Shown here one piece after another: positions 43,835 to 64,000 of a DNA stretch of 64,000 nt. Numbering within the stretch: the stretch's first letter is position 1; the number at the start of each line of letters is the position of its first letter. The stretch is from Planctomycetota bacterium (lineage in GTDB: Bacteria > Planctomycetota > Planctomycetia > Gemmatales > Gemmataceae). The notes under the pieces were generated by a model that was given only the letters and a program-made list of their open reading frames with translations, had not been told where the DNA came from and did not search any database. The stretch lies in NCBI GenBank assembly GCA_016191165.1, contig JACPPF010000039.1, positions 1 through 64,000 on the forward strand, given 5' to 3'. A program made the position numbers and the translations under genes.

Positions 43835-43848
43835 ACAGGAAAGAGAAA

Positions 43849-47114: not shown

Positions 47115-50100
47115 ATGCGGGTGGCGATCCTGTCCGGCAACGCGCCGCGCCAAAGCGCGGTCGGCAACCAGATTGCCGAGAAGTTGCGCTTCTTTCAGGA
47201 GCGCGGCGCCGAGGTCCGCCTGTTTCTCCAGGACGCGCGCCGGCTGCATTCCGACCTGCTAGCGTGTACGATCGAGGTGCCCACTCCAGTCGCCGAAGGG
47301 CCAGCCTGGAAGTACCTGGTGCACGCCGATCTCGTCCTGGTTGTCTATGCTCAGCATTTTTCCCTATTGCCTTGGCTGCCCGCCCTGGGCGGCGCGGGGC
47401 CGCGCATCGTTTTCGATTATCTCGGCGTCACGCCGACCGCGTTCGGCTGCCAGCAACACCAGGAGGTATTACGGCAAAGTGAACGGCAGCGCGATTTCGT
47501 GTGGTGCGCCAATTCCGCGCTGACAACGAGCCGCGCCAACGCCGACGAACTCCACGAGGCCACGGGGTTTCCCACCGCGCACACGGCCACGCTGCCCTTG
47601 GCCGTGGACACCGACCGATTCTACCCGGACCTGAGCGAACGGTTTCTTCAGCGAACGCTGTCCATCGCTGGCCCGATTTTGTTGTATGTTGGCCGACTGG
47701 CGGGGAACAAGCGGGTGCCGGTCCTGATCGAGGCGCTGGCGAAGCTCCAGGATGATTCGGCCCACGCGGTCATCATCGGGGATCAGGGCGACATTTACGC
47801 CGAGGAAGTGGCCCGCTGCCAGGCGCTTGCGGAGCATTCGGGCGTCAGCCAGCGCGTCCACTGGCTAGGGCAACTCGACGACACGGACCTGGCACGCGCC
47901 TATCGCAGCGCCACGTGTCTGGTCATGCCGTCATCGCATGAAGGGTTTTGCGTGCCGGTGATCGAAGCAATGGCGAGCGGGTTGCCCGTGATTACGGCGC
48001 GCAGTGAGGCGTTGCCCGAGACGGTCGGAAATGCCGGTTTGACGTTCACTCCCGACGATTCCGACGATCTGGTTTGTGCAATTCGGCGTGTCTTGATGAC
48101 CGACGGCCTGGACGCCGCTCTTGGGATCGTTCGTCCTCGGCGGGTTGCCTTCGTTTGTTTTCGGTTTGGTTCGCAAATGGTGGGCGGCGCGGAGATGTCG
48201 CTACGGAGCATGGCGAAGTCGCTCAACGGCGCCGGCCACCGGGTGGAAATATTCACGACCTGCACGACGACGGAAAGCCACTGGAAAAACGATTTGCCAG
48301 AGGGCGAATTCGCGCTTGATGGCTTGCGTGTGCATCGCTTTCCGATCGATGGGCATGACGCCTCTGCGCACGGGGAAGCGTTTCGGGCCATTCTCGACGC
48401 CGATGGCCAGGTCTGCACGGACATTGAGGAGAGCTACCTGCGTCACAGTATTCATTCCAGCGCCCTGCTGGCGGCGTTGGGCGAGCGCGCAGGGGAGTTC
48501 GATGCCATCGTCACTGGCCCGTATCTCTTCGGCCTGACGGCGGACATCGCACGGGAATTTCCTGCCAAGACCCTGATCGTCCCATGTTTTCACGACGAAG
48601 GACTCGCGAGGCTTGCCGTTTGGCCTCGACTTTACGGTAACTGTGCCGGCATCTTATTTCACAGCATCGAGGAGCAGGTATTCGCGCAAACCCGGCTTGG
48701 CGTGAATCACCCGAACACGCAGGTTGTCGGCGCCCTCCTCGGCGGTCCGTCGACCTGGTGCCGGCGGACCGAACCCGCCAACGCGTCAAGTAGCCGACCC
48801 TATGTGGTCTATTGCGGGCGATACTCCGAGCAAAAGAACCTCCCGCTTTTACTCGACTGGGCCAGGCGTTTTCAAACCGACCATCCGGGCCAGCTTGATT
48901 TCGTCTTCATGGGACAGGGGCGTCTCGCCTTGCCTCGCGAACCCTGGTTGCGCGATCTGGGCCGGGTTGACGAGGCAACGAAACGCTCGGTGCTGGCCGG
49001 CGCCCTGGCGCTCGTCCAGCTTTCGATCCAGGAATCGCTGTCGCTGGTCGCGCTGGAAGCGTGGGCCACGGGTACGCCGGTGGTCGCCCATCAGGATTGC
49101 GCCGTTCTCGCCGGGCAGATCGCGCGCTCGAGCGGCGGCGTCGTGGTCGCGGACTACGATGGTTTCGCGCAGGCGCTCGCCGCGGTTTCGCACGATCCCA
49201 CCTACGGCGAACGCGGGCGCGCCTATGTCGCCGAGCATTATGACTCGGCCGATCGATTTCGCAGCCTGCTTCTGGGTGCGATCGATGCCGTACAGCGGCC
49301 GATATGCCAACAAATGCGCGAGCGGGGCGTGCAACGGGCCGGCCTGTTTTCGCGGCCCGCCTGGCAGCAGCGGTTCGCTGAGTTTGTCGAAAACGCACTC
49401 ACCCAGCCGGCCCGGCCCATGTGCAACGAGTTAGTGGTTGAGCCGATGCGGGCTACCGTCGAAGCCGCCGCGGGTGCGCGCAGTCTGCTAATTCCCGTTC
49501 GGCTCGCACAGCGTGGGACCGTCTGTGCAATACCGGATGGCCCAGGCCGCACGGTGATCTGCTGCGAAATTCGCGCCGTGCAGGGTGCCCTGGTCGTGAA
49601 GGAAACGGAGATTCCACTCGCCTGTATCGTGACACCGACGCAAACCCAAGTGGCCGCATTGGCGCTCGAGTTGCCCGGCGATCCCGGATGTTACGATGTT
49701 CGTCTCTGGAGTGAGATGCAAGGCAAGCAACTGTGCGAACCGGCGGCGTTCTCCTTGGTGCTGACCGGTGAGGCGGTTAAGCAAACTCATTCCCCCACAG
49801 CGGTTTTTCTCGACGCGGTGCGAAAGGCGTTGCCGCAGGCGCATCGGCTGCAAAAGTTGCCGACCGATTACGTCGATGTGACCGAGGGAACGCTGGCGCC
49901 GGTGAAACGTCTGATCAAGCGGAAGCTCTTCCACAACTTCAAACACGCCTATGTGGACGTGGTGTCGCGGCAGCAAACGCAGATGAACGAGAAGCTGGTG
50001 CTGATGATCCAGCAGTTGAGCGAGTGCTGCGAAATGCTTGATCACGCGGTTGTCGGGCTCCATCAACGGCTCGATGGCCTTCAGGCGAAACTGGAAGAAA

Positions 50101-50156
50101 CGCCAAGTGATTGCGTGACGCGATGCGAGCGCAAAGAACATGCTTCAAAACCGTAG
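47115..50156 (+). CDS. Tandem GT4-type glycosyltransferase protein
   Basis: The 1013-residue protein, from an ATG with GGAGGAAA upstream, holds two glycosyltransferase-like units. The first, about 1-330, has the nucleotide-sugar signature in PSSHEGFCVPVIEAMASGLPV. The second, about 340-720, has an N-terminal SQMVGGAEMSLRSMA segment and YVVYCGRYSEQKNLPLLLDW with SIQESLSLVALEAWATGTPV. A further 290-residue beta-rich and coiled C-terminal part is not recognised. It probably builds a surface polysaccharide and forms a pair with the epimerase gene downstream. Confidence 0.85.
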   Translation: MRVAILSGNAPRQSAVGNQIAEKLRFFQERGAEVRLFLQDARRLHSDLLACTIEVPTPVAEGPAWKYLVHADLVLVVYAQHFSLLPWLPALGGAGPRIVFDYLGVTPTAFGCQQHQEVLRQSERQRDFVWCANSALTTSRANADELHEATGFPTAHTATLPLAVDTDRFYPDLSERFLQRTLSIAGPILLYVGRLAGNKRVPVLIEALAKLQDDSAHAVIIGDQGDIYAEEVARCQALAEHSGVSQRVHWLGQLDDTDLARAYRSATCLVMPSSHEGFCVPVIEAMASGLPVITARSEALPETVGNAGLTFTPDDSDDLVCAIRRVLMTDGLDAALGIVRPRRVAFVCFRFGSQMVGGAEMSLRSMAKSLNGAGHRVEIFTTCTTTESHWKNDLPEGEFALDGLRVHRFPIDGHDASAHGEAFRAILDADGQVCTDIEESYLRHSIHSSALLAALGERAGEFDAIVTGPYLFGLTADIAREFPAKTLIVPCFHDEGLARLAVWPRLYGNCAGILFHSIEEQVFAQTRLGVNHPNTQVVGALLGGPSTWCRRTEPANASSSRPYVVYCGRYSEQKNLPLLLDWARRFQTDHPGQLDFVFMGQGRLALPREPWLRDLGRVDEATKRSVLAGALALVQLSIQESLSLVALEAWATGTPVVAHQDCAVLAGQIARSSGGVVVADYDGFAQALAAVSHDPTYGERGRAYVAEHYDSADRFRSLLLGAIDAVQRPICQQMRERGVQRAGLFSRPAWQQRFAEFVENALTQPARPMCNELVVEPMRATVEAAAGARSLLIPVRLAQRGTVCAIPDGPGRTVICCEIRAVQGALVVKETEIPLACIVTPTQTQVAALALELPGDPGCYDVRLWSEMQGKQLCEPAAFSLVLTGEAVKQTHSPTAVFLDAVRKALPQAHRLQKLPTDYVDVTEGTLAPVKRLIKRKLFHNFKHAYVDVVSRQQTQMNEKLVLMIQQLSECCEMLDHAVVGLHQRLDGLQAKLEETPSDCVTRCERKEHASKP

Positions 50157-50227
50157 CGTGGACCAAAGCCCACGCCACGGCTGGATTGGAAACGGCTTCC
50201 AAACGCAAGCCCCTGGAGACTTCACGG

Positions 50228-51169
50228 ATGAAGTGCCTCGTCACCGGATCGGCAGGTTTTATCGGTTCCCACCTTTGCGAGCGCCTCGTGCGCGACGGGC
50301 ATACCGTCGTCGGCATCGATGCGTTCATTCCCTATTATCCGCGCGCGCTCAAGGAAGCCAACCTCCTCTGGTTGCGCAGTCAGCGCGGCTACAGTCATCA
50401 TGCACTGGATTTGCGTACCGATCCGCTGGACGGCGTTCTCGAGGGCGCAGACGTTGTTTTCCATCTGGCTGCGATGGCGGGGCTGGTAAAGAGCTGGACC
50501 GATTTCGACTGGTATCTAAGCTGCAATCTCACGGCCACGCAGAGGCTGCTGGAAGCGGTGCGGCAGACGCCGACGGTGCGCCGCGTCATTTACGCATCCA
50601 CGTCGTCGGTCTATGGCCGATTCAGCACGGGGGACGAGACGATGCCGACCCGGCCCATCTCGCCCTATGGCGTGACCAAGCTGGCGGCGGAAAACTTGTG
50701 CCGGTCTTACGATGAGTTCGGAGTCTCGGTCGTCGTGCTACGCTATTTCTCGGTGTATGGCCCGCGGCAAAGGCCCGACATGGGTTATCACCGCTTCATC
50801 TCGGCCCTTTTGGAGAATCAGCCGATCACGGTTTACGGCGACGGCCACCAGACGCGAGGAAACACGTATATCGATGATTGCGTCGAGGCGACCGTGGCCG
50901 CCCTGCAAGCGCCAGGTGGCGAGACGTACAACCTGGGGGGCGGCGAGACGGCATCGGTGTGGGACGTCCTGGCCCGGCTCGAGGCGATTCTGGGCCGACG
51001 CGCCATCATCCGCAGCGAGCCGGCCCGTCCGGGGGATCAGCGCTCGACTTACGCCGACACCGGAAAGCTGCAACGCCATCTGAACTGGCAGGCGAGAACA
51101 CCCTTGGACGACGGCCTGGCGAGGCAGGTCGCCTGGCAACGTCAATCCGCCCACAAACAGGCGGCGTGA
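50228..51169 (+). CDS. NAD-dependent nucleotide-sugar epimerase/dehydratase
   Basis: The 313-residue extended SDR has the Rossmann motif GSAGFIGSH (7-15), the catalytic Tyr147 and Lys151 in YGVTK, and YFSVYGPRQRPDM, as in UDP-glucose or UDP-glucuronate 4-epimerases. GGAG precedes the ATG at 50228. It lies 71 bp behind the double glycosyltransferase and is likely to supply its sugar donor. Confidence 0.9.
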   Translation: MKCLVTGSAGFIGSHLCERLVRDGHTVVGIDAFIPYYPRALKEANLLWLRSQRGYSHHALDLRTDPLDGVLEGADVVFHLAAMAGLVKSWTDFDWYLSCNLTATQRLLEAVRQTPTVRRVIYASTSSVYGRFSTGDETMPTRPISPYGVTKLAAENLCRSYDEFGVSVVVLRYFSVYGPRQRPDMGYHRFISALLENQPITVYGDGHQTRGNTYIDDCVEATVAALQAPGGETYNLGGGETASVWDVLARLEAILGRRAIIRSEPARPGDQRSTYADTGKLQRHLNWQARTPLDDGLARQVAWQRQSAHKQAA

Positions 51170-51218
51170 CGGCTACGTTCCTTCCCCCGGCCATGGGGAC
51201 AGGGGAGAAAAAACGTGG

Positions 51219-51425
51219 TCACCGTTGCATCAACATCGAGCGCCAGTGAGTGGGCTGACACTGGACGTGCCGACGGGCCGCATCGGTCGTGGAGGGATCG
51301 ACCTGACTGGGCGTTACCGCCGCGCTCGCAGCGCCCGGTCGCACCCAGACCCCCAGCGACTGGATGCCGCCGAGGGTCAGGCCGAAAATCAACAGGAAAA
51401 GCCACCAGCTCGATTTCTGAAACAT
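51219..51425 (-). CDS. Possible small membrane-anchored protein
   Basis: The 68-residue frame starts with MFQKSSWWLFLLIFGLTLGG, a clear hydrophobic helix, followed by a polar tail. AAGGA lies nine bases upstream of the ATG at 51425. It follows nif3 on the same strand with a gap of 181 bp. No family is recognised; size and a single helix give only moderate support. Confidence 0.4.
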   Translation of the reverse strand: MFQKSSWWLFLLIFGLTLGGIQSLGVWVRPGAASAAVTPSQVDPSTTDAARRHVQCQPTHWRSMLMQR

Positions 51426-51606
51426 GCCCGACATCCTTGTCGTTGTGAGTAAAACGTCTTCCTGGGCAGAGCAACCTGCAAACCCCGCGCCGCCGTTTCT
51501 TTTTGTCGCAACATGCCTTGATTGGGACTCTGGAGATGCTGGCGAGAATTGGCAACCGATCCGCGCGCCCGCGTGTTGCAAAACTGTCTGCGGCCACCGG
51601 AACGTT

Positions 51607-52710
51607 TTACATTATCAACAGCGGATCGCGTTCGCGCCGACTGGGCCACACGGTTGCGTCTGGGAATCGAGCCTGGAGCCGATCGGCGAGCGTTTCCATG
51701 CCGAGCCGTTCCGTCGCGTAATGGCCAGGCAACACCACGGCGATGCGTTTTGTCTGGGCGGCGAGGCAATCGTGGAAGCGCATTTCACCGGTGAGAAAGA
51801 CATCCGCCTGCCGCGCGGCCGCATCCGCGAAAAACTCCCCCGCCGCTCCGCAAGCAATCGTGACGCGCCGCACGCTTTGCTCCGGGGCGCCGACGATTTG
51901 CACCCACGATGCCCCTAGCGCGGTTTTTGCAAGTTGTGCAAACGCGCCTAACGACATGGCGGCTGGCAGGACCCCCAGCCGGCCCTCGCCGGCAGGTGCT
52001 CGCATCGGCCGGAGGGGATAGACATCGAACGCGGGTTCTTCATAGGAATGAGCGTGGCGCAGGGCAGCGACGACGGCGTCAACCGCGTGCTCGGCGCAGA
52101 CGACTTCCAGTCGCCATTCCGCCACTTCCTCGCGTTGACCCTTGACGCCGAGCGTTGGGTTGGTTGCCTCGGAGCCAAAGAAGGTTCCGGTTCCCGCCAG
52201 GCGAAAGCTGCATTCGCGGTACTGCCCAATGTGTCCCGCACCGGCGGTGAACATCGCGTCGCTGACCTTCTTCAGATCGTGTTCGGGCACGAAGACGGCG
52301 ATTTTGCATTGTGCTGCCGCATCGCAGTACCGCAGCGGCCCGACGTCGGTCAGGCCTATCCGCGCCGCCAGCTGATCGTTGATGCCGCCGGCGCAGTTGT
52401 CGTAGGCCGTGTGGGCGCTGTAAACGGCGACCCCGGCCCGAACCAGGTCGAGCGCCATGCGCCCTTCAGCATTGGCGGTGGTGAGTTGTTGGATCGCCCG
52501 AAAGAGAATGGGATGATGGCTGATGATGAGGTGGGCGCGCGTCTCAATCGCCTCGGCCACCGACTCGGCGGTGACCGTTAAACAAGTCATCACCCGTTGC
52601 ACCGGCGCCGCGGAATCGCCGAGCAAGAGGCCGACGTTGTCCCAGTCGGCCGCCAGCGCCAGCGGTGCGATGGACTGCAGCGCCGACATGAAATCAGCGA
52701 CGGTTGACAT
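51607..52710 (-). CDS. Nif3-like dinuclear metal-centre protein
   Basis: The 367-residue protein has the Nif3/YqfO metal sites HLIISHHPILF near the N-terminus and GHYATERLGMETLA near the C-terminus, with the CutA-like insert between (FVPEHDLKKVSDAMFTAGAGHIGQYRECSF). It may act as a GTP cyclohydrolase-like or regulatory metal enzyme; the true role in bacteria is unresolved. The start ATG at 52710 gives the expected N-terminus. Confidence 0.92.
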   Translation of the reverse strand: MSTVADFMSALQSIAPLALAADWDNVGLLLGDSAAPVQRVMTCLTVTAESVAEAIETRAHLIISHHPILFRAIQQLTTANAEGRMALDLVRAGVAVYSAHTAYDNCAGGINDQLAARIGLTDVGPLRYCDAAAQCKIAVFVPEHDLKKVSDAMFTAGAGHIGQYRECSFRLAGTGTFFGSEATNPTLGVKGQREEVAEWRLEVVCAEHAVDAVVAALRHAHSYEEPAFDVYPLRPMRAPAGEGRLGVLPAAMSLGAFAQLAKTALGASWVQIVGAPEQSVRRVTIACGAAGEFFADAAARQADVFLTGEMRFHDCLAAQTKRIAVVLPGHYATERLGMETLADRLQARFPDATVWPSRRERDPLLIM

Positions 52711-52731
52711 GCGTTGCCCTCAACCAATTTG

Positions 52732-52807
52732 AGCCGCGACCCGCACAGACGTGCGGGCAGCGGCGCCCTGGGCCCGCTTGACCTTGGACCTCACGCGGAG
52801 CGTGAGG
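52732..52807. repeat. Lone P3 arm and a short palindrome
   Basis: A P3-like single arm (GAGCCGCGACCCGCACAGAC) lies at 52732 onward without its partner. It is followed by the short palindrome CCTCACGCGGAGCGTGAGG (52789-52807). Confidence 0.6.
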
Positions 52808-52847
52808 CCTACGATGTGCCGGCGCGAAGTGAAGCGCCGCCAAATAC

Positions 52848-53237
52848 TCACTGCTCCTGGCTTGCTTCCTCAATGACATCCTCGGCAACGTAGATTGGAA
52901 CCTTGGCGGTCACGGCGATGGCGATGGCGTCGGAAGGCCGGCAATCGACCTCCACGATTTCACCATCCTTGCGGATTCGCAGCCGGGCGAAATAGGTATG
53001 TTCACGCAGTTCGTTGATGTAGATGTCTTGCAGGTCGCCGCCGAGCAAATCGATGACGTTGCAGATCAGGTCATGGGTGAGGGGCCGGGGCCATTTTTCG
53101 CCCTTGATGCGTTTTTCGATGCTGCGCGCCTCGAATAAGCCAATCACGATGGGAAAGGCGCGCTCGCCGTCCACCTCGTGGAGGAGGATGATCTGCGAGT
53201 CGTGAATCTCGTTGATGATGATCCGCCGTAATTCCAT
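52848..53237 (-). CDS. Bifunctional nuclease family (DUF151) protein
   Basis: The 129-residue protein begins MELRRIIINEIHDSQII and shows the family blocks FPIVIGLFEARSIEKR, LTHDLICNVIDLLGG, INELREHTYFARL and DCRPSDAIAIAV. Members have nuclease activity in vitro and are linked to stress responses. The ORF track continues to 53333, but conservation starts at the ATG at 53237. No ribosome-binding site is obvious there, so the longer start remains possible. Confidence 0.88.
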   Translation of the reverse strand: MELRRIIINEIHDSQIILLHEVDGERAFPIVIGLFEARSIEKRIKGEKWPRPLTHDLICNVIDLLGGDLQDIYINELREHTYFARLRIRKDGEIVEVDCRPSDAIAIAVTAKVPIYVAEDVIEEASQEQ

Positions 53238-53630
53238 CAGCACTGTCACGGCAACCTCGCATTCCCGCGCTGGGTCCGACCTTGCGGATTGTTCCAGCCT
53301 CGTAACTGGGGTATCCAGCACAATCACCCGCATCGGCTCAAGCCGGTCGTTCGCCGTTCCGAACTTCCTCGTAGGGGCTCTTTTTCCATTGTAGCGACAC
53401 CGTGGATCAAGAAGAATATGCTACCGAAGAACGCAGGCCGGTCGGCGCCCTCGGGAGGGGTTGCGTCGCCGTCATTCTCGACCTATAGTTGCAATTGTGG
53501 TGCGCCTTTGCCAAAGGCTGAAACCGGCCTAAAATAGAAACGGAAAGTCCTTCGCCCCGGCTCGTGATCCTGGCCGTCCTTGGGATTGGCGCGACAATCC
53601 GAATCGTAGCGTGAAAGACGAGGTGGTCCC
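53238..53630. other. Intergenic region between divergent genes
   Basis: This interval lies between the bifunctional nuclease and PP2C genes. It holds a promoter-like pair (53508-53535) and possibly an N-terminal extension of the nuclease. No other gene is seen. Confidence 0.5.
53508..53535 (+). promoter_or_regulatory. Candidate promoter of the PP2C gene
   Basis: TTGCCA (53508-53513) and TAAAAT (53530-53535) are 16 bp apart, 96 bp before the phosphatase start. Confidence 0.45.
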
Positions 53631-54386
53631 ATGCCCCTGAGCCTGAACATCGGGAAATGCACGCTTCTTGGCAACTATCGTGAAAACAACGAAGATTCCA
53701 TCGACGTGAAGCCGTTCCCGGACATGATCGCCTGTATCGTTGCCGACGGCATGGGTGGCCAGGCCGCGGGGGAGATCGCCAGCAAACGCGCCATCGAAGT
53801 CGTGCCGCGTGAACTGCGCAAAAACCTCGCCAACGCCGGAAATGAGGAACAACTCAAGCAGGTGGTGCGCAAGGCGGTCATGCAAGCCAACGAAGAAATC
53901 ATCACGATGGGCACGCTCGACCGCGAATTGAAGAACATGGGCACGACCATTGTCCTGGCGCTGTGGCGCAAAGGGCGCGAACTCTACATCGCCAACCTGG
54001 GTGATTCCCGCGCCTATCTCATTCGCGCCGGCACGATTGAACAGCTGACAACGGACCACTCCCTGGCGCAGGCCCTGGTTGAAAACAAGACGATCTCGGC
54101 CGAGGAAGCCAAGGTTCACCGCTGGAAGAACCACCTCTGGAAATATCTGGGCAGCAAGGAAAACGGCGAGGGGCCCGAGGTGAAGCCGATCCTGCTCGAA
54201 AAGGGCGACCGCGTCCTTCTGTGTACGGATGGATTGACCGGCCCGGTTCCGGACGAAAAACTACTGGAATTCATCGACGCGCACCCGGATGTGCAGGAAT
54301 GCGCCGACGGTCTGGGCCAACTCGCCCTCGACATGGGTTCGCGCGACAATGTGTCATGCATCCTCATCGAAGCGGTGGAAGGTTAA
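53631..54386 (+). CDS. PP2C family Ser/Thr protein phosphatase
   Basis: The 251-residue protein has the PP2C motifs with metal-binding acids: NNEDSID, ADGMGGQAAGE, NLGDSRAYLIR, LLCTDGLTGPV and GSRDNVSCILIE. It is a soluble single-domain enzyme that reverses Ser/Thr kinase signalling. GAGGTGG lies ahead of the ATG. No kinase gene is adjacent. Confidence 0.94.
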   Translation: MPLSLNIGKCTLLGNYRENNEDSIDVKPFPDMIACIVADGMGGQAAGEIASKRAIEVVPRELRKNLANAGNEEQLKQVVRKAVMQANEEIITMGTLDRELKNMGTTIVLALWRKGRELYIANLGDSRAYLIRAGTIEQLTTDHSLAQALVENKTISAEEAKVHRWKNHLWKYLGSKENGEGPEVKPILLEKGDRVLLCTDGLTGPVPDEKLLEFIDAHPDVQECADGLGQLALDMGSRDNVSCILIEAVEG

Positions 54387-54398
54387 CCGGCGCGGGAT

Positions 54399-54427
54399 CC
54401 CAGGGGTTCATTTCGTTCACCCCTGGG
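54399..54427. terminator. P8 hairpin between convergent genes
   Basis: CCCAGGGGT and ACCCCTGGG pair in the short gap between the PP2C and SDR genes and may act as a terminator in both directions. Confidence 0.55.
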
Positions 54428-54440
54428 CTTGATTCATTTT

Positions 54441-55166
54441 TCATACATACATCTGCGCCGTCGGCTTGATCACCAACTCTGGCACCGAAACGTGCTTTGG
54501 CAACAGCGCCACGAAACGTACCGCCTCGGCGACGTCGCCTGGCTGCATGATCTTCGCGCGGTGCTCCGCCGAAATCGGCTGCGGACGGAATACGAGAATC
54601 GGCGTATCCACCTCTCCGGGATAGATGTTGCACACGCGAATCCCCGAATCCTTTTCCTCCGCCGCAAATCCGATCCCCAGGGCTGCCTGCCCGAATTTCG
54701 AGGCGGCATAGGCGACGCCACCCAGGGGCGAGGCGCGCAACCCGGCCACCGAGACAATATTGATGATGACGCCGTCCTGGCGCGCGAGCATCGACGGGAA
54801 GACCGCATGGATGCAGTAGAACGCGCCGTCAAGGTTGGTGCGAATCAATCGGTCCCACGACTCGGGCGTCAACTCGCGGAACGTGCGTTCCTTGAGATTG
54901 GTGCCGGCGTTATTGACGAGAATGTCGATCGGGCCAAGCTTCTCCGTCACGGTCTTGACCAGGGCCGCCACTTGTTTTGCATTGGACACATCGGTCGCGA
55001 TCGCAAGAACGTCGCCCAGTTCTTTCGCGACCGCGTCGAGTTTTTTCTGATCGCGTCCGGCGATGGCGACACGCGCGCCCTCCTCGTGCAGCACCTTGGC
55101 GGCCGCCGCGCCGATGCCGCTGCCGCCGCCGGTGACGAGTACGATCTTGCCTTTGAGTTTCGCCAT
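54441..55166 (-). CDS. Short-chain dehydrogenase/reductase
   Basis: The 241-residue enzyme has GGGSGIG (cofactor), NNAGT, the catalytic Ser in INIVSVAGL, YAASK and NIYPGEVDTP, as in classical SDRs of the 3-oxoacyl reductase or YdfG type. It is soluble. Start at ATG 55166. It is convergent with the PP2C gene and the substrate is unknown. Confidence 0.88.
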   Translation of the reverse strand: MAKLKGKIVLVTGGGSGIGAAAAKVLHEEGARVAIAGRDQKKLDAVAKELGDVLAIATDVSNAKQVAALVKTVTEKLGPIDILVNNAGTNLKERTFRELTPESWDRLIRTNLDGAFYCIHAVFPSMLARQDGVIINIVSVAGLRASPLGGVAYAASKFGQAALGIGFAAEEKDSGIRVCNIYPGEVDTPILVFRPQPISAEHRAKIMQPGDVAEAVRFVALLPKHVSVPELVIKPTAQMYV

Positions 55167-55267
55167 TTTTGAATCCTGAGAAAACGACCGGACTGTTTTG
55201 TAGGATGAGGTACAATATATTCAGAGGGGCGCCATTGACGCGAATTTGACGAACCGGCGGGCGAGCC

Positions 55268-55504
55268 ATGAATATGCAAATTGAGGACTTGCCAAAAAAC
55301 CTCGACGCATGCCTCGACCGGGTCAAGGCGGGCGACACGGTATTCCTTTTGGACAAAGACACGCCCATCGCGGAACTCAGGCCGCTTCCCGCTCCACTTC
55401 CGACGACGCGCCCCTACGGGCGTTGTGCCGGGCATTTCGTTGTCCCGGACGATTTTGACGCCCCCTTGCCGGAGGATTTGCTTAGCGAGTTTGAATCCCC
55501 ATGA
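55268..55504 (+). CDS. Antitoxin of a Phd/YefM-like module
   Basis: The 78-residue protein has a compact N-terminal region (IEDLPKNLDACLDRVKAGDTVFLLDKDTPIAELRP) resembling Phd/YefM-type antitoxins that bind operator DNA. An acidic disordered tail (DDFDAPLPEDLLSEFE) probably binds the toxin. It overlaps the toxin gene as ATGA. Confidence 0.82.
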   Translation: MNMQIEDLPKNLDACLDRVKAGDTVFLLDKDTPIAELRPLPAPLPTTRPYGRCAGHFVVPDDFDAPLPEDLLSEFESP

Positions 55505-55884
55505 AAATCTTGCTCGACACGCATATTTTTCTATCGTACATCAGCGCCGACCGTCGTCTAGCTTTCTCGGTGCGAGATGCGATCCTTGATGGCACAAACG
55601 AGGTTTTTCTGAGCGCGGCGTCGGTTTGGGAAATCATCATCAAATCCCAGCTTGGCAAACTGCCGTTGCCTGAACCAGCGGAAACCTACATTCCGAGGGA
55701 ACGTTCCGCTCACCTCATAGCCAGCCTGCCCGTTGACGAAGACAGCGTCAAACGCCTGGCGAGGCTCCCCGCTCACCATCGTGATCCATTCGATCGCTTG
55801 CTTGTTGCACAAGCGTTAGAGCACGGCTGTAAGCTGGCCACGGTGGATCCACAAATTCGCGCCTATCCGGTGGGGCTTCTTTGA
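55501..55884 (+). CDS. PIN-domain toxin (VapC-like)
   Basis: The 127-residue protein shows MKILLDTHIFLSYI with the first active-site Asp, SAASVWEIIIKSQLGKL with Glu, and HHRDPFDRLLVAQA with further acids. This is the subfamily that pairs with Phd-like antitoxins, and it should be an RNase. It is coupled to the antitoxin gene. Confidence 0.92.
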   Translation: MKILLDTHIFLSYISADRRLAFSVRDAILDGTNEVFLSAASVWEIIIKSQLGKLPLPEPAETYIPRERSAHLIASLPVDEDSVKRLARLPAHHRDPFDRLLVAQALEHGCKLATVDPQIRAYPVGLL

Positions 55885-55922
55885 TCAGACACAGAATAAT
55901 CGCCCTGGCGGAGAGCCTCCTT

Positions 55923-56861
55923 ATGAAGATGAAACATTTCTTGATCGTTGCCTTGATTTCAGCAACGACCTGCGTTCCGTGCGCCTCGGGCCAATCGCCG
56001 TCCGAAATCGCCATCAAATCCGAATCCGGCAAACTCGTCATCACCGCGGGCACGGCGCCTCTGGCCACCTATGTGTTCCGCGATACGAAGATTCACCGGC
56101 CCTACTTCGCCCACGTTCACGCGCCGGGCGGGATTCAGGTGACGCGGAATCATCCGCCAATTTCCGGCAAGGATGCGACCGATCACGCCGAGTTTCATCC
56201 CGGCCTTTGGTTCGCGTTCGGCGACCTGAGCGGGGCGGATAGCTGGCGCCTCAAGGCACGCGTTCAGCATGACAAATTCGTTCAGGAGCCCAAGGCCGGG
56301 GCCGGTGCGGGGACCTTCGTGGTCCGAAACTCCTATTTGTCCAACAACGGCGCGAAGGTGATTTGTCGCGAAACCTGCCGATACACCTTCCTCGTAAAAC
56401 CAAACGGATACTTGCTTTTATGGGACTCGACGTTCATGGCCGATCACGACTTCGCCTTCGGTGATCAGGAAGAGATGGGTCTGGGCCTCCGCGTGGCAAC
56501 GCCGATAACCGTCAAAGCTGGTGGGCGCATCCTGGCCAGCGAGGGGCACAAAAACGAAAAGCAGGTCCGTGGCAAGACCTCGCCATGGTGCGACTACGCC
56601 GGCAAGATCGATGGCAAACCAGCAGGCGTGCTGATGATGCAGCATCCCAAGAACTTTCGCTCCGCCTGGTATCACGCGCGCGACTACGGGTTGCTGGTCG
56701 TCAATCACTTTGGCCGGCGCGACCTGACGGGCGGCGCCAAAAGCAGCGTGGTCGTGAAAAGGGGCGAGACGCTGCGGCTGCGCTTTGGCGCACTGCTACA
56801 CGCCGGCGCGAAAATTGACCTGGCGGCGTCGTACAAAGATTATCTGATGGAAACGAAATAG
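55923..56861 (+). CDS. Secreted PmoA-like (DUF6807) protein
   Basis: The 312-residue protein has a signal peptide (FLIVALISATTCVPCASGQ) and the PmoA-like core: PYFAHVHAPGGIQVTRNHPP, DHAEFHPGLWFAFGDL, WCDYAGKIDGKPAGVLMMQHP and NHFGRRDLTGG. Planctomycete genomes hold many copies, probably acting on sugars outside the cytoplasm, but no activity is proven. It is the last gene before the triplicated cassette. Confidence 0.85.
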   Translation: MKMKHFLIVALISATTCVPCASGQSPSEIAIKSESGKLVITAGTAPLATYVFRDTKIHRPYFAHVHAPGGIQVTRNHPPISGKDATDHAEFHPGLWFAFGDLSGADSWRLKARVQHDKFVQEPKAGAGAGTFVVRNSYLSNNGAKVICRETCRYTFLVKPNGYLLLWDSTFMADHDFAFGDQEEMGLGLRVATPITVKAGGRILASEGHKNEKQVRGKTSPWCDYAGKIDGKPAGVLMMQHPKNFRSAWYHARDYGLLVVNHFGRRDLTGGAKSSVVVKRGETLRLRFGALLHAGAKIDLAASYKDYLMETK

Positions 56862-57004
56862 CCGCTCGCGGCAAAGCGCTCGCATGACGCCGCGCCAACG
56901 TCACACCTCAAGCTGCGCATCACATCACCGTTGTCTCGCTGGGCCAAGGCGCTCGCCGTGACGGTCCAGGCAAACCCCCGACGCCACAATCAGGGTAATC
57001 CCGA

Positions 57005-57033
57005 TTACAATGGGCGTGCGGCACGACCATAAT
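57005..57033 (+). promoter_or_regulatory. Cassette promoter, copy 1
   Basis: TTACAA (57005-57010), 17 bp, CATAAT (57028-57033). The same arrangement, with TTGCAA, precedes cassette genes A2 and A3. The start codon is 41 bp beyond the -10 box. Confidence 0.65.
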
Positions 57034-57074
57034 TATTGCAATCATTTCCGCATTTCAATTTTCCGGAGTCAGTC

Positions 57075-57947
57075 ATGGGGACCTCCCGCTGGATTCTGCG
57101 ATTCGCTGGCACGCTGCTGCTTGCAGCGGCTGCGCTCAAGGCGTGGGGGCTAGAGCCTATGGCGCGCCTGGGCGTTCTTTCGACCGCCGAAGCGCAGCTG
57201 ACGATCATCGCCTTGGAACTTTTCCTCGGTCTGTGGCTCTGGATCGGCGCGGGGCGGGCGAATGCGCTCGGCCCCTGGCTACTCGCGGTTCTAACTTTCG
57301 CCATCTTTGCGTGCGTGACTTTCTATCTCGGCTGGGTCGGCCAATCGTCTTGCGGGTGTTTGGGGCGCTATTCGCCGAATCCCTGGTACGCGTTCGGCCT
57401 GGACGTGTGCGTGCTGGCGGGTTTGGTCATGGGCTGTCCTGACTGGAAATTGCTGCGAAATCACCCGCGCACGCTCCTGAGCAATACCAAGTTTCCCGCC
57501 CCGTGCGGACTGATCGCCGTGCTGTTGTCGGGCGCCATATCCGGTTTGGCCTGGGGCAGTTTTGGTTCGGTCGGGGCTGCGCTCGCCCATTTTCGCGGCG
57601 AACGCCTTTCGATTCATCCCCGGCTCGTCGATGCCGGCGCGGCGCCGAGCGGCGACGGCCGGGAAGTACGCATCGCGTTGACCAACTGGACCGAGCAACC
57701 GATCAACCTGATCGGCGGCACGTCCGATTGCGCTTGCACGGTCCTCGGCGATCTGCCCGTCACCATTCCCGCCGGTGAGACGGCGACGGTTGCCGTGAAC
57801 CTTCACTTTTCGGGTAGGCCGGGTTTGTTCACGCGGCAGGCGGCTTTTCTAATCGACGATCAAGGCTTCAAAGCAATCAGCTTCACCATCACGGGTCGCA
57901 TACTCGAAAGAACGGAAAACTCCGACGAGGCCGGCGGCGCGCCGTAG
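57075..57947 (+). CDS. MauE-like membrane protein with DUF1573-like domain, cassette gene A1
   Basis: The 290-residue protein has about four membrane helices in residues 5-122, with C93-G-C95 in SSCGCLG on the outside of helix 3, as in MauE-type redox membrane proteins. A further helix lies near 145-165 and an extracytoplasmic C-terminal domain at about 185-285 has SDCACTV (C219, C221), resembling DUF1573. Thiol exchange for its Cys-rich partner is inferred. CGGAG precedes the ATG. At codon 60 copy 1 reads GGGGCGGG, where copies 2 and 3 have pure G tracts. B1 follows 43 bp later. Confidence 0.75.
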   Translation: MGTSRWILRFAGTLLLAAAALKAWGLEPMARLGVLSTAEAQLTIIALELFLGLWLWIGAGRANALGPWLLAVLTFAIFACVTFYLGWVGQSSCGCLGRYSPNPWYAFGLDVCVLAGLVMGCPDWKLLRNHPRTLLSNTKFPAPCGLIAVLLSGAISGLAWGSFGSVGAALAHFRGERLSIHPRLVDAGAAPSGDGREVRIALTNWTEQPINLIGGTSDCACTVLGDLPVTIPAGETATVAVNLHFSGRPGLFTRQAAFLIDDQGFKAISFTITGRILERTENSDEAGGAP

Positions 57948-57990
57948 CGTGTTGCGGACCACGTCATTCCATTGACGAAGGGAGACTGCA

Positions 57991-58479
57991 ATGAAAGCCA
58001 AATTGGAAGAGTTCGCCTCGGTTTTCTTCAGCGCGCTGGGCATCGCGTTCGTGGCGCTGGGCATCCTGGTCGTGCCCGCGGATGCGTTTGCCGCTTACAA
58101 CGGCGAATGCGTCAATTGCAAAAACTCGCCAACTCGTCCACAATGCGCGTCGGATTGCTGTTCGACGTTCAAGGACGACCTCACGGCGAGGTGCCAATGC
58201 TGTAACGATGCCTGCGGTGATGACGCGGCGTGTCTGAAACGCTGCACCGAGGAGGCGTGCGGCAACGATCCTGAATGCCAGGCAAATCGCGCTTTCGGTG
58301 GTCCGTGTGTTGCGGCTTCCATCTGCGACACAGGTTGTGCGTTTCTGCCCATCGCGACCTGCCCCGAGCGAAAGATTTTGTGCAACGCAATCCCGTTGCC
58401 GCCGAATTCACCGACGGGCTGTACCGGGTGCGTATGCAGCGAGAATCCCGTAACAAAGGCGTGCAATTGTGTTCCATGA
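57991..58479 (+). CDS. Secreted Cys-rich protein, cassette gene B1
   Basis: The 162-residue protein has a hydrophobic leader (FFSALGIAFVALGILVVPADAFA) and a mature part with 23 cysteines. The segment from AYNGEC to about residue 92 (CASDCCSTFKDDL, CQCCNDACGDD, CLKRCTEEACG) is nearly identical in B2 and B3; the rest is unique. It is probably disulfide-bonded outside the cytoplasm, perhaps with help from A1. GAAGGGAG precedes the ATG. No known family is recognised. Confidence 0.75.
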   Translation: MKAKLEEFASVFFSALGIAFVALGILVVPADAFAAYNGECVNCKNSPTRPQCASDCCSTFKDDLTARCQCCNDACGDDAACLKRCTEEACGNDPECQANRAFGGPCVAASICDTGCAFLPIATCPERKILCNAIPLPPNSPTGCTGCVCSENPVTKACNCVP

Positions 58480-58626
58480 CCAGCGAGCGTCGCCACTTAC
58501 CCAACGCGCCGATCGCGATGGACTTTCCCCATGACTGGCGTTCATTCGGCGCGATGACACCGGGGCGCCTTTGCTGCAAAACGGTGGAGATAATCTTCGA
58601 TTCGATGTCTCAACGTTTGGTGAAAT

Positions 58627-59679
58627 ATGACAAGGTTGCGATTCCCCTTCCGATCCGGTCTTTGTGAGGTTTTCGGCATTGCCGCCGCAATGGTACTCGT
58701 AGTCACGGGCAGCCAGGCTGATGAGCAATTGCGCAAACGCTTTCTGGCGGAGGCGCCAGCGGCGTGGGAACAATATCGCGCCTTTGCTGATGACTTGGTG
58801 GGGAGCACAGAAACGCTGCGGGAAGTCAACCAACAGCCGCGATCCAGGATTCGCATCGAATACAAGGCTAACCTGAATTGCCGAATGCACCGGGTGATCG
58901 AATTGATGCCGCGGAAACGAGCGGACTCACGCGCCGATGATGAATTGGTTTCAAAAAACCCCCACTATACCATGAAATTGGGCCGAAAGCCTCCTGATGG
59001 CAGATGGGTGCTGCACCAAATTGCTTTAACCATGCCCGGCAAAGCGAATCCGATAAACAAGGACTTTTTTTTTGACACGACCGAACTACGGTGTCTGATT
59101 CAAATCAACACGGAAGCCCTGCCGGCGCTCCCGAAACAGGCGAATTTCATCCTTGTTGACGTACGTTGGAAGGATTTTGAAGGCGAGCGAATGGCAGAAA
59201 TCGAATTCACCAATCGTCACCCGCTGCCGGGAACCCCAAAGGGGTTTTTCGCGATCCAGGGTGGCAAAATCATTTTGGATCCAAACCGATATTGGTGCGT
59301 TCGAACATCTGACTTGATTTGCAAATATGGCGGGGGCTATCACGACACTGTCGTGAAACAATACATCGAATTAAGGAAGTCCACAGGGAAGTTTCCAATT
59401 CCCAAGCGCCGCCAACACTCCTTGTTTAGCAAGGACAAGCAGTTTACGGTCACCGATACCACGGAATACGACCTTCGTGAACGCTCCAATGGGCCAGAAG
59501 ACGCCGATTTCTACGCCTCCGCTTTTGGCCTACCGGAACCAACGGGAATCACGGCCCCCGCTCGGTCCCGCTGGTACCTCTGGTTCCTCGGCATCGGCGC
59601 CGTTGCGCTTGGAGCGGGCTGGTACTGGCGCCGGCGCGTGCTGCAACACCGGGCGCTGACGGCGATCCTTCCAAATTAG
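58627..59679 (+). CDS. Secreted protein with C-terminal anchor, cassette gene C1
   Basis: The 350-residue protein has a signal peptide (to about residue 32, GSQA), a beta-rich region with conserved W-x-x-Y (AWEQYRAFADDL) and NPHYTMKLGR, and a single C-terminal membrane helix (RWYLWFLGIGAVALGAGWYW) followed by RRRVLQHRAL. Its last 36 residues match C2 almost exactly, though the bodies differ strongly. A nine-T run (59065-59073) encodes FFF. The function is unknown. Confidence 0.68.
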   Translation: MTRLRFPFRSGLCEVFGIAAAMVLVVTGSQADEQLRKRFLAEAPAAWEQYRAFADDLVGSTETLREVNQQPRSRIRIEYKANLNCRMHRVIELMPRKRADSRADDELVSKNPHYTMKLGRKPPDGRWVLHQIALTMPGKANPINKDFFFDTTELRCLIQINTEALPALPKQANFILVDVRWKDFEGERMAEIEFTNRHPLPGTPKGFFAIQGGKIILDPNRYWCVRTSDLICKYGGGYHDTVVKQYIELRKSTGKFPIPKRRQHSLFSKDKQFTVTDTTEYDLRERSNGPEDADFYASAFGLPEPTGITAPARSRWYLWFLGIGAVALGAGWYWRRRVLQHRALTAILPN

Positions 59680-59720
59680 GAGAGCGGCGATCCCCGACAC
59701 CGGAATCAGGATAACCCCGA

Positions 59721-59749
59721 TTGCAATCGGCGTGCGGCACGACCATAAT
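59721..59749 (+). promoter_or_regulatory. Cassette promoter, copy 2
   Basis: TTGCAA (59721-59726), 17 bp, CATAAT (59744-59749). The surrounding 100 bp are nearly identical to the copy 1 and copy 3 leaders. Confidence 0.65.
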
Positions 59750-59790
59750 TATTGCAATCATTTCCGCATTTCAATTTTCCGGAGTCCGTC

Positions 59791-60670
59791 ATGGGGACCT
59801 CCCGCTGGATTCTGCGATTGGCTGGCACGTTGCTGCTGGCGGCGGCTGCGCTCAAGGCGTGGGGTCTGGGGCTGGAGCCTGTGGCGCGCCTGGGCGTTCT
59901 TTCGACCGCCGAAGCGCAGCTGACGATCATCGCCTTGGAACTTTTCCTCGGTCTGTGGCTCTGGATCGGCGCGGGGGGGGGCGAATGCGCTCGGCCCCTG
60001 GCTTGCGGCTGTTCTGACGTTCACCGTTTTTGCCTGTGTCACGTTCTACCTGGGCTGGGTCGGCCAATCGTCGTGCGGCTGTTTGGGCCGCTATTCGCCG
60101 AACCCCAGGTACGCGTTCGGCCTGGACGTGTGCGTGCTGGCGGGTTTGGTCATGGGCTGTCCTGACTGGAAATTGCTGCGAAATCACCCGCGCACGCTCC
60201 TGAGCAACACGAAGTTTCCCGCCCTGTGCGGACTGATCGCCGTGGTGTTGTCGGGCGCCATATCCGGCCTGGCCTGGGGCAGTTTTGGTTCGGTCGGGGC
60301 TGCGCTCGCCCATTTTCGCGGCGAACGCCTGTCGATTCATCCCCGGCTTGTCGATGTCGGCGCGGCACCAGCCGGGGACACGCGCGAAGTCCGCATCGAG
60401 TTGACCAACTGGACCGAGCAGCCGATCAACCTGATCGGCGGCACGTCCGATTGTGCCTGCACGGTGCTCGGCGACCTGCCCGTCACGATTCCGGCGGGTG
60501 AGACAGTGACGGTAGCCGTGAACCTTCGCTTCTCCGGAAGGCCCGGAATGTTCACTCGCAAGGCGGCCTTTCTCATCGACGATCAAGGCTTCAGAGCCAT
60601 CAGCTTCAGCATCACGGGTCGAACGCTCAGTGAATCGGAGAACCTCGACGTGGCCGGCGGCGCGCCGTAG
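59791..60670 (+). pseudogene. MauE-like/DUF1573-like protein, cassette gene A2, out of frame at a G9 tract
   Basis: From the ATG at 59791 the protein matches A1 through IGAG and then leaves the conserved frame at a run of nine G (59973-59981), stopping at 60165 after 124 residues. The conserved frame resumes in a +1-shifted frame and runs to 60670 with SCGCLG, the middle helices and the SDCACTV domain intact. Eight or eleven G would restore one frame. No other damage is seen, so this may be a phase-off gene, a recent mutation or a sequencing error. Confidence 0.72.
59973..59981 (+). other. G9 tract causing the A2 frameshift
   Basis: Nine consecutive G replace GGGGCGGG of A1. In the conserved frame the length must be 8 plus a multiple of 3. 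A3 at the same codon has 11 G and is in frame. Confidence 0.75.
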
Positions 60671-60686
60671 CACGCTGCGGACCGCG

Positions 60687-60694
60687 TTTTTTTT
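60687..60694 (+). other. T8 run upstream of B2
   Basis: Eight T lie between the A2 stop and the B2 ribosome-binding site. Copy 1 has GTCATTCC at the equivalent place. The run could alter spacing or act as a weak slippage site. Confidence 0.45.
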
Positions 60695-60715
60695 CATTGA
60701 CGAAGGGAGATTGTA

Positions 60716-61210
60716 ATGAGGGCCAAATTCGAAGAGTTCGCCTCGGTGTTCTTCAGCGCGCTGGGCCTCGCGTTCGTGGCGCTGGGTATCCTGGTCGTGC
60801 CGGCGGACGCGTTTGCCGCTTACAACGGCGAGTGCAGCAGTTGCCAAAAATCGTCCACCCGTTCGCAATGTGCCTCCGATTGTTGCTCCACCTTCAAGGA
60901 CGACCTCACGGCCCGTTGCCAGTGCTGCAACGACGCCTGTGGCGATGACACGGAATGTTTGAAACGCTGCGCCGAGGAGGCGTGCGGGGGTGACCTGGAA
61001 TGCGCGGTGAATTGCGTGCAGCAGAAAATGAAGAAGTGCGCGGGTGATGGCTGCGAACTCCCCGGCCTGCCCTGTTTTATACAGTGGGCGAACCTGGGGA
61101 AGTGTGACGGACTGCAAACCCTTTGTCGCAGGCCCGGCGTCATTGGGTGCGACGACTGCTTTTGCGTCAAAATAATCAACCAACAGGCGTGCGGTTGCCG
61201 CCTCAAGTAG
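60716..61210 (+). CDS. Secreted Cys-rich protein, cassette gene B2
   Basis: The 164-residue protein with 24 cysteines shares the leader and Cys framework of B1 through about residue 92 and then has its own tail (NCVQQKMKKCAGDGC...). GAAGGGAG precedes the ATG. It remains intact although A2 is out of frame, so it may be translated independently or use A1 or A3. Confidence 0.75.
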   Translation: MRAKFEEFASVFFSALGLAFVALGILVVPADAFAAYNGECSSCQKSSTRSQCASDCCSTFKDDLTARCQCCNDACGDDTECLKRCAEEACGGDLECAVNCVQQKMKKCAGDGCELPGLPCFIQWANLGKCDGLQTLCRRPGVIGCDDCFCVKIINQQACGCRLK

Positions 61211-61260
61211 AGTCTGTGTCGAAGGCCGGCGCATCGTCTTTTTCAAGAAGGGGTAATCCA

Positions 61261-62328
61261 ATGATTCGACCTCCGATTGCTGCAATCTGCTGGGTTGTGT
61301 TGGCACAGGCAGCGCCTGACTTGGTTGTGACTTGCTACGCGGGACAATCGTGGCAGGAGACCTTTCAGAGGGAAGCGCCCAAGACCTGGCAAAAGTATGC
61401 TGAGCGGGCACGACGCCTACAAGGAAAGTGGACCAGCACGACTCGTTCCATCACCCAAAAGGAGGTCATTTCGCACGAGTGGGGCGAATTCAAGCAGCGC
61501 GACGGTTGCTACCTCTTTGTGGGCCAGTCGCAAGGGGAAGGACAAAAACGCGATGTCCGCGGCGAACTCAGTGCCGTGAATCCCTACTACGCCTTCCAGT
61601 TCAGGAGATCGGCCCGCAACGATCCGTGGCTAATCACCGGTTTCGGGGCGAACTTGTGGGAGCGAGGAAGTTATTCCGACCCGCAATTTCAGGTCGAATC
61701 TTTGCTGCATCGGCCTTACAAGTTCGGTGGCGCGTTGCCGGAAGGATCGATGACTCTTCTCGATCAAGGATTCGTGATCAAAAAGGTGGTGCCCTTGCAG
61801 CGAGACGGCGAGCAGTTGGTCCAGGTCGATTTCCGCTGCTCATTTGCGGATCGAGCGTCAAGCCGGGGGTTGCACAGCGGCTCAGTGGTTCTTGATCCGC
61901 AGCGCAACTGGGTCATGCGCTCGTTCACAGCTAAAGCGAAATGGGGTGACGTCGAGATCAATTACGTTGTCGCGTTGGCATATGCCGAAACACGCGATCG
62001 ATTCCCGCTTCTGAAAAAAATAACGGCCGACCGGCGGGTGACAGGCACCAACCGACATTTCCTCCAAACCAGTGAATATGACTTGGAGGAAAAAGACGTC
62101 CCTGAGTCAGAATTTCGCGTTTCCGCTTTTGGTTTCCGCGAACCGCTCGGCGTGCCGCCGCCGGGTCTGACACGCTGGTACCTCTGGTTCCTCGGCATCG
62201 GCGCTGTCGCATTGGGCGCCGGCTGGTACTGGCGCCGCCGCGTGCTGCAACGCCGGGCGCTGACGTCGGCCAAACCCGATCCTTCCACAGTAGAAGAGCG
62301 GCGATCCCCGACGGCACAATCAGGGTAA
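61261..62328 (+). CDS. Secreted protein with C-terminal anchor, cassette gene C2
   Basis: The 355-residue protein starts at ATG 61261 with AAGGGG upstream, has a signal-like N-terminus, the W-x-K-Y segment (TWQKYAERARRL), NPYYAFQFRR and the same C-terminal anchor as C1 (RWYLWFLGIGAVALGAGWYWRRRVLQRRAL). The body shares only a few positions with C1. Its last codons run into the conserved leader of the third cassette, so gene and promoter regions abut. Confidence 0.68.
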   Translation: MIRPPIAAICWVVLAQAAPDLVVTCYAGQSWQETFQREAPKTWQKYAERARRLQGKWTSTTRSITQKEVISHEWGEFKQRDGCYLFVGQSQGEGQKRDVRGELSAVNPYYAFQFRRSARNDPWLITGFGANLWERGSYSDPQFQVESLLHRPYKFGGALPEGSMTLLDQGFVIKKVVPLQRDGEQLVQVDFRCSFADRASSRGLHSGSVVLDPQRNWVMRSFTAKAKWGDVEINYVVALAYAETRDRFPLLKKITADRRVTGTNRHFLQTSEYDLEEKDVPESEFRVSAFGFREPLGVPPPGLTRWYLWFLGIGAVALGAGWYWRRRVLQRRALTSAKPDPSTVEERRSPTAQSG

Positions 62329-62334
62329 CCCCGA

Positions 62335-62363
62335 TTGCAATGGGCGTGCGGCGCGACCATAAT
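62335..62363 (+). promoter_or_regulatory. Cassette promoter, copy 3
   Basis: TTGCAA (62335-62340), 17 bp, CATAAT (62358-62363). It begins seven bases after the C2 stop codon. Confidence 0.65.
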
Positions 62364-62404
62364 TACTACCATCATTTCCGCTTTTCAGTTTTCCGGAGTC
62401 AGTC

Positions 62405-63283
62405 ATGGGGACCTCCCGCTGGATCATGCGGTCCGTGGGCTCGCTGCTGTTGGCGGCCGCCGCGCTCAAGGCGTGGGGGCTAGAGCCTATGGCGCGCCTG
62501 GGCGTTCTTTCGACCGCCGAAGCGCAGCTGACGATCATCGCCTTGGAACTTTTCCTCGGTCTGTGGCTCTGGATCGGCGCGGGGGGGGGGGCGAAGGCGC
62601 TCGGCCCCTGGCTACTTGCGGTTCTAACTTTCACCGTCTTTGCGTGCGTGACTTTCTATCTCGGCTGGGTCGGCCAATCGTCTTGCGGATGTTTGGGCCG
62701 CTACTCGCCGAACCCCTGGTACGCGTTCGGTCTGGACGTCATCGTTCTGGCGGCGCTGCTGGTGGGCCGGCCTGACCTGACGGCGCTGCGTACAAGTCCG
62801 CGTGCTTCGCTGGCGGCGAATGCCTATCCGGGAGCGTGCGGATTGGGGAGCGTGACGCTCTTGACTCTGTTGCTTGCGCTTCTGCCCACGCTGGGCTACG
62901 GTCCCGTGGAGCAAATCATCGCCAACCTGCGCGGCCAGCGCGTCACCATTCAGCCCAGCCTGGCCCAAGTTGAACCCGGCGCCCCGGGCCAGCAGCGAGA
63001 AATCACGGTCGAGATCGCCAACTGGACCGACGCACCGATTCGCCTGATCGGCGGCGCCACGGATTGCTCCTGCACCGTACTCCATGATTTGCCGATCACC
63101 ATTGCTCCCAACGAAACCCGCAGCGTCGCGGTCCGCATCGCCCTTTCGGGCCAACCTGGAATCTTCACGCGCAAGGCGGCCTTTCTCGTGGACGATCAGG
63201 GTTTCAAGGAGATCGGCTTCACGATGACGGGCCGCATACTGAAAAATTCTCAACCTCGAGACATTGCCGGCGGAGCACGTTAG
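62405..63283 (+). CDS. MauE-like membrane protein with DUF1573-like domain, cassette gene A3
   Basis: The 292-residue protein has the same domains as A1, with SSCGCLG in the outer loop and TDCSCTV in the C-terminal domain. Its first third is nearly identical to A1 at the DNA level, whereas its last two thirds differ more. At codons 59-63 it has 11 G giving IGAGGGAKALG, in frame. CGGAG precedes the ATG. It is followed after 36 bp by B3. Confidence 0.75.
   Translation: MGTSRWIMRSVGSLLLAAAALKAWGLEPMARLGVLSTAEAQLTIIALELFLGLWLWIGAGGGAKALGPWLLAVLTFTVFACVTFYLGWVGQSSCGCLGRYSPNPWYAFGLDVIVLAALLVGRPDLTALRTSPRASLAANAYPGACGLGSVTLLTLLLALLPTLGYGPVEQIIANLRGQRVTIQPSLAQVEPGAPGQQREITVEIANWTDAPIRLIGGATDCSCTVLHDLPITIAPNETRSVAVRIALSGQPGIFTRKAAFLVDDQGFKEIGFTMTGRILKNSQPRDIAGGAR
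62581..62591 (+). other. G11 tract within A3
   Basis: Eleven consecutive G keep the reading frame. Ten or twelve would shift it and end the protein after about 120 residues, as happens in A2. Confidence 0.75.
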
Positions 63284-63319
63284 CTTCGCGACATTTCACT
63301 CTTCAACAAGGAGACAGTC

Positions 63320-63850
63320 ATGGCCAAGCTCGATGCATTGCTGGCGTGGTTTTTCACGTCGCTGGGTTACGCACTGGTGGGATTCGCGATCTTGATTGTG
63401 CCCGCGGATGCCTTTGCCGCTTACAACGGCGAATGCGTCAACTGCCAGAATTCGTCCACCCCGTCCCAATGTGCTTCCGATTGTTGCTCGACGTTCAAGG
63501 ACGACCTGGCGGCGCGGTGCCAATGCTGCAACAACGCTTGCGGCGATGACGCGGAATGTTTGAAGCGTTGTGCCGAGGAGGCGTGCGGGGGTGATGTGGA
63601 ATGTGCGGTGAATTGCCTTCAGGAAAAGGGGAAACAATGCATCACCGACAAGAAAATGGACCTGACCTGCAATGGACCCGATTGTAACACCCTCGGCGTT
63701 CCGCCGATGGGGACCGTTTGCGTGTCTGCCGACCTCGATCCCATGAAATTCAAATGCTTAACCACGAAACTTTGTGACGCATGCAAGTGCGGAGTTCGCG
63801 ATGTGATGATTGGCGAAGTCAAGGCGAAAATCTGCATCTGTTGGAAATAG
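63320..63850 (+). CDS. Secreted Cys-rich protein, cassette gene B3
   Basis: The 176-residue protein with 24 cysteines has the conserved leader and Cys framework (CASDCCSTFKDDL, CQCCNNACGDD, CLKRCAEEACG) and a third unrelated tail (DKKMDLTCNGPDCNTL...CICWK). AAGGAGA precedes the ATG. The expected C gene does not begin within the last 150 bases; an ATG at 63988 opens a frame that leaves the window. Confidence 0.75.
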   Translation: MAKLDALLAWFFTSLGYALVGFAILIVPADAFAAYNGECVNCQNSSTPSQCASDCCSTFKDDLAARCQCCNNACGDDAECLKRCAEEACGGDVECAVNCLQEKGKQCITDKKMDLTCNGPDCNTLGVPPMGTVCVSADLDPMKFKCLTTKLCDACKCGVRDVMIGEVKAKICICWK

Positions 63851-64000
63851 GCAGGCGGCCGTTCGAACTTGCCGGCGGGCCGCGCCCCGAATCCGAACCT
63901 TCGCATGGCGTGACGCCGTACGGCTCAGGGGTTCTTCTTCGTGGTATACGTGTGGCTCGTCACAAGAACGGACGAGGCGAGCCGCCATGTTCCCCCGGTC

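Follow-up and report, generated by a model that had tools for sequence, protein, structure and literature searches.

The window (the whole stretch of 64,000 nucleotides that was analyzed, C176:1-64000, from the 7.2 Mb planctomycete genome G000, whose nearest named relatives are Gemmataceae MAGs) is filled from ~56.9 kb onward by tandem A-B-C units, and the A genes of three units carry a tract of G at the same site, which in A2 puts the gene out of frame. The question raised by this locus is whether the tract is a switch and A2 has been caught in its off state, or whether A2 is instead a dying duplicate, a sequencing artifact or a gene read through by recoding. A encodes a fusion of a MauE-like membrane domain with DUF1573, B a protein of 162-176 residues and C one of ~350 residues (Table 1). 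The Pfam gathering cut-off for DUF1573 (PF07610; 26.1 bits) is passed by A1 (29.0) and by the 3' part of A2 (30.9), with A3 under it at 22.8 bits; the cut-off for MauE (PF07291; 27 bits) is missed by both A1 (22.5) and A3 (23.3), and the membrane domain is therefore called MauE-like only. B1 has no match in Pfam or NCBIfam. A sequence search of solved structures returned weak HYDIN-type Ig matches only.

Table 1. Features of the A-B-C array; positions are those of the window.
Feature	Position	Strand	Description	Basis or score
Window	1..64000		C176:1-64000, genome G000	
A1	57078..57947	+	MauE-like/DUF1573 membrane protein gene, intact, 289 aa	DUF1573 29.0 bits, MauE 22.5 bits
A1 tract	57251..57258	+	GGGGCGGG, C-interrupted, in frame	alignment
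B1	57991..58479	+	secreted-type Cys-rich protein, 162 aa	
C1	58627..59679	+	~350 aa, C-terminal membrane segment WYLWFLGIGAVALGAGWYWRRR	
A2 promoter-like site	59721..59749	+	TTGCAA-17-CATAAT, spacer without repeat	match to consensus only
A2 frame	59791..60165	+	from ATG 59791, stop 60163-60165 after 124 aa	
A2 tract	59973..59981	+	9 G, out of frame (off register)	
A2 conserved 3' part	59984..60670	+	other frame, no internal stop	DUF1573 30.9 bits
B2	60716..61210	+	Cys-rich protein, 164 aa	
C2	61261..62328	+	355 aa, C-terminal membrane segment	
A3	62405..63283	+	MauE-like/DUF1573 gene, intact, 292 aa	
A3 tract	62581..62591	+	11 G, in frame (on register)	
B3	63320..63850	+	Cys-rich protein, 176 aa	

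Alignment and coordinates bear out exactly the tract lengths given in the preliminary description (GGGGCGGG in A1, 9 G in A2 and 11 G in A3), together with the consequence drawn there for A2, which leaves its frame at 9 G and stops after 124 residues while the homologous downstream part stays open in another frame. In all three genes the tract is preceded by ctggatcggcgc and followed by cga[at/ag]gcgctcggcccctgg in the alignment. A1 and A3 are moreover identical across ~100 nt upstream of the tract, which argues that the tract site is shared through descent or gene conversion and does not represent three independent events. Runs of at least eight G give nine overlapping matches in the window compared with 3.7 expected, and 3 of 100 shuffles reach nine. 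A chance homopolymer was rejected as an explanation: G8 runs are near chance in the window, but their placement in the family is not.

The remainder of A2 had also been described as conserved, and this statement gains in force, as the 3' part is intact and under purifying selection, with a dN/dS of 0.17 relative to A1 over the post-tract part. Differences between A1 and A2 after the tract number 14, 15 and 51 at codon positions one, two and three. On the branch leading to A2 alone (outgroups A3 and C60) there are 25 synonymous and 13 non-synonymous changes, set against a ratio of synonymous to non-synonymous sites of ~1 to 2.8; A2 has therefore evolved as a coding gene through most of its history, and no further disabling change was seen in it. 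These figures weigh against the view that A2 is a decaying duplicate killed by a homopolymer indel, in an A-B-C array evolving by birth and death with gene conversion, since on the A2 branch the out-of-frame part has evolved under strong purifying selection and has no other lesion. Real decay does occur in the family, and in the same genome it is seen without any repeat, as a 2-nt insertion in the C26 gene, a frameshift in that of C46 and the loss of the 5' end in A4 and in the C136 copy; L198 and L134 are likewise broken without a repeat. Such decay nevertheless gives no prediction of the many non-triplet kinds of repeat at the 5' ends of homologues described below, and it is an unlikely account of A2. 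Copies of A truncated at the 5' end, at C176:65590-66147 and C136:20051-20884, seem to have arisen by recombination inside the array.

To place the tract within its family, 92 distinct MauE-like/DUF1573 members with a readable N-terminus were collected from relatives in Gemmatales (Planctomycetota), the sample comprising one assembly per species, mostly MAGs. A simple sequence repeat containing G or C is found near the start (in a window from -250 to +200 of the first helix) in 33 of the 92 5' ends, no G/C repeat being detected in the remaining 59, compared with 8 of 357 neighboring windows farther off in the same loci (p 2.6e-18) and 0 of 52 control 5' ends from PF07596 and EamA genes of the same genomes (p 4e-8); both p values overstate independence, as the members are paralogues and not all independent. 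The repeat unit varies by genus (G, C, AC, GGCT, GCCGA, CCCCGAG, GCTCCCC, CGATCAG, AAGCGCC, GATCCAGC, CAGTTCGT and TTCTCCGC, as well as GGCATT, which is found upstream of the start only), as does its extent, with (AC)23, (GGCT)8, (GCCGA)6, (CCCCGAG)4-5 and (GCTCCCC)6 among the arrays and octamers present too. Of the repeats located within reading frames, not one has a unit divisible by three. Several repeats abut the start codon itself, as in ATG(GGCT)8, ATG(GCTCCCC)6 and ATGA(AC)23, and others occupy promoters, between good -35 and -10 elements in TTGACA-GGGAC-G11-TAATGT (G070) and TTGACA-AAGC-G10-TAATCT (G089), and as T runs in G040/G041. The apparent acquisition of different repeats at the same place across genera points strongly to selection for switching. 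A profile search of genome contigs with an 8-row alignment recovered nine named loci; the same kind of search with A3 alone found nothing in the contigs, and a search of plasmids gave no matches.

Of the repeats within reading frames, about one third are in the on register and about two thirds in the off register (start codons being chosen by Shine-Dalgarno context and conservation, with manual curation), which is near the expectation for free-running switches. Close copies differ in length in the same manner. In three paralogues of G037 that share a start codon, the tract is G9 (on), G8 (off, 38 residues) and G10 (off, 59 residues), with zero substitutions in the ~110 nt flanking the tract; paralogues of G031 have five and four CCCCGAG units; and a member from another genus has G7, out of frame, at the very codon used by A2 and A3. 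In the G037, A1/A2/A3 and G031 sets, and in the T runs of G040/G041, tract length evolves faster than the flanks. These comparisons also bear on homopolymer sequencing error, which the preliminary description had named as the main alternative. Error retains a place as regards the exact count in A2, which could be wrong, homopolymers this long being error-prone and the source being one assembly; as an account of the family-wide pattern it fails, since the same on/off pattern appears in non-homopolymer repeats of homologues (octamer, heptamer, pentamer, tetramer and dinucleotide) and 8, 9 and 10 G occur among close paralogues in G037. An intact A2 whose nine Gs were miscounted in sequencing or assembly is very improbable, and an error of this kind would alter the state assigned to A2, not the family-wide pattern, which is independent of that count. 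Production of a full-length A2 protein by programmed recoding at the G tract, whether as transcriptional slippage or as ribosomal frameshifting, is scarcely credible here. Such recoding is established as another explanation of conserved frame transitions (PMC3711429), and the 3' part of A2 is conserved out of frame as recoding would require; however, homologues do not conserve tract lengths or repeat units, and slippage of this type could not operate on octamers, heptamers and dinucleotides or on tracts in promoter spacers.

The same placement is seen within the genome that contains the window. Pattern searches, from which all genome-wide statistics are taken, find only 38 G/C runs of at least nine in the whole 7.2 Mb, and six of these fall within, or immediately upstream of, the ~13 A-family genes: A2, A3, C115 (G11), C26 (C11), C60 (C10) and C46 (G12). 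The G11 of C115 is at a different codon than the A2/A3 site and is likewise out of frame. In C60, C26 and C94 (the last with a C8 run) the C run lies between TTGCCC and TAGAAT/TAGACT, giving spacers of 17, 19 and 15 nt, respectively. A promoter-like spacer holds only five of the 38 runs, and three of these five belong to A genes. A fourth is that of C114, with G13 in TTGACA-18-TATACT (C114:1808-1820, L068), upstream of a gene for a 231-residue DUF1573 protein followed by one for a 126-residue Cys-rich protein of secreted type; it is likely a further switch, outside the MauE-like family. A G12/C12 run also occupies the 20-nt spacer of a promoter-like site, TTGACT/TAGAGT, at C145:21397-21408 (L076), upstream of an unrelated reading frame of 357 residues. 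Separately, paralogous C11 and C10 runs stand right after ATGCG(C/T)T(A/G) at C38:7211-7221 and C38:12946-12955 (L054, L055), and may mark a second pair of switched genes. C9-C10 runs at L046, L047, L050, L053, L075 and L079 belong to a dispersed repeat that is mostly intergenic; a common intergenic repeat was rejected as the origin of the family tracts, which do not sit in it.

The preliminary description had read the tract as a contingency locus, and this reading is supported by the non-triplet repeats in homologues of many genera, by their mixed registers and by purifying selection on A2. The repeats are non-triplet and lie within the reading frame (G9 in A2, G11 in A3) or in the promoter, and on (A3) and off (A2) registers both occur with otherwise intact coding sequence. 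The G tract most probably switches translation on and off, as one case of a family-wide habit, with A2 caught off. Slipped-strand mispairing would add or remove Gs in the tract, reversibly; mutation rates at typical SSR loci exceed the basal rate by a factor of 100-10,000 (PMC11868660). A frame-keeping length such as the 11 G of A3 would permit synthesis of the full MauE-like/DUF1573 protein, and other lengths, such as the 9 G of A2, would cause truncation after the second membrane helix, which in A2 may also reduce expression of the downstream B and C genes through polarity. The promoter-like site of A2 and its homologues at 57004-57033 and 62335-62363 are matches to consensus only; those of A2 and A3 lack a repeat, so the switch in the window would be translational. 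In other family members the switch may be another kind of repeat, placed after the start codon, or one lying between -35 and -10, where its length would determine promoter spacing. The C-interrupted tract of A1 is possibly a stable on version.

As to what the switch would control, many members, of different genera, have a gene for a small secreted Cys-rich protein after A. Some have speculated that MauE assists disulfide formation in methylamine dehydrogenase, and mauE homologues adjoin RiPP-candidate genes (PMC7794033). We propose that A is a redox membrane protein that may carry out thiol-disulfide chemistry on the adjacent secreted Cys-rich B, in which case switching of A would make the display of B a bet-hedged surface or secreted trait. 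After some MauE-like genes (L108, L128, L136, L206) come Cys-rich reading frames whose N-terminal motifs, such as LSDRELAQVRGG, are reminiscent of double-glycine leaders. Just past the window, at C176:65112-65549 (L080:11113-11550), is a small DUF1573-like frame with one in-frame TGA (GLSGC*NTNC), and a TGA occurs at the same site in two other genera (L117 and L130; GLGGG*GMNCC and GVTVC*GINCC). The window's genome has SelA and tRNA-Sec, so selenocysteine is plausible at this TGA; the NCBIfam selenoprotein model OS_HP2 does not match the frame.

Phase variation through SSRs is known mostly from host-adapted pathogens, and a full-text literature search, of incomplete coverage, turned up no earlier account of it for Planctomycetota or Gemmata. 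The present loci indicate a trait under fluctuating selection in free-living planctomycetes, imposed perhaps by phage, grazers or competitors, and mark a secreted Cys-rich protein family as worth characterizing. A wider proposal, to which we give an even chance, is that Gemmatales have a phase-variable repertoire of their own, in which MauE-like/DUF1573 and Cys-rich operons have independently recruited many repeat units as promoter-spacer or reading-frame switches, each cell thereby showing a random subset of Cys-rich proteins.

Among known systems, MauE of methylamine utilization operons resembles A in its N-terminal multi-helix domain with a CGC motif and in a gene that adjoins one for a small Cys-rich protein of exported type, and differs in that A scores 22.5-23.3 against 27 bits and is fused to DUF1573. 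Homopolymers in promoter spacers are the switches of porA and opc of Neisseria meningitidis. Family members likewise have poly-G/C or poly-T between -35 and -10, with spacers of 14-19 nt that differ between paralogues; unlike porA and opc, their promoters are known by consensus only, the downstream genes are unrelated, and in A2 and A3 it is the reading frame, not the promoter, that holds the tract. In this last respect the window resembles the SSR loci of Neisseria, Haemophilus, Campylobacter and Helicobacter, in which poly-G/C or tetranucleotide tracts lie in reading frames. The organisms here belong to another phylum, the free-living Planctomycetota, and the putatively switched genes to another family, MauE-like/DUF1573; yet, as in those pathogens, genes for envelope or exported proteins carry non-triplet repeats close to their 5' ends, both registers, on and off, occur in otherwise intact frames, and length differs between close copies.
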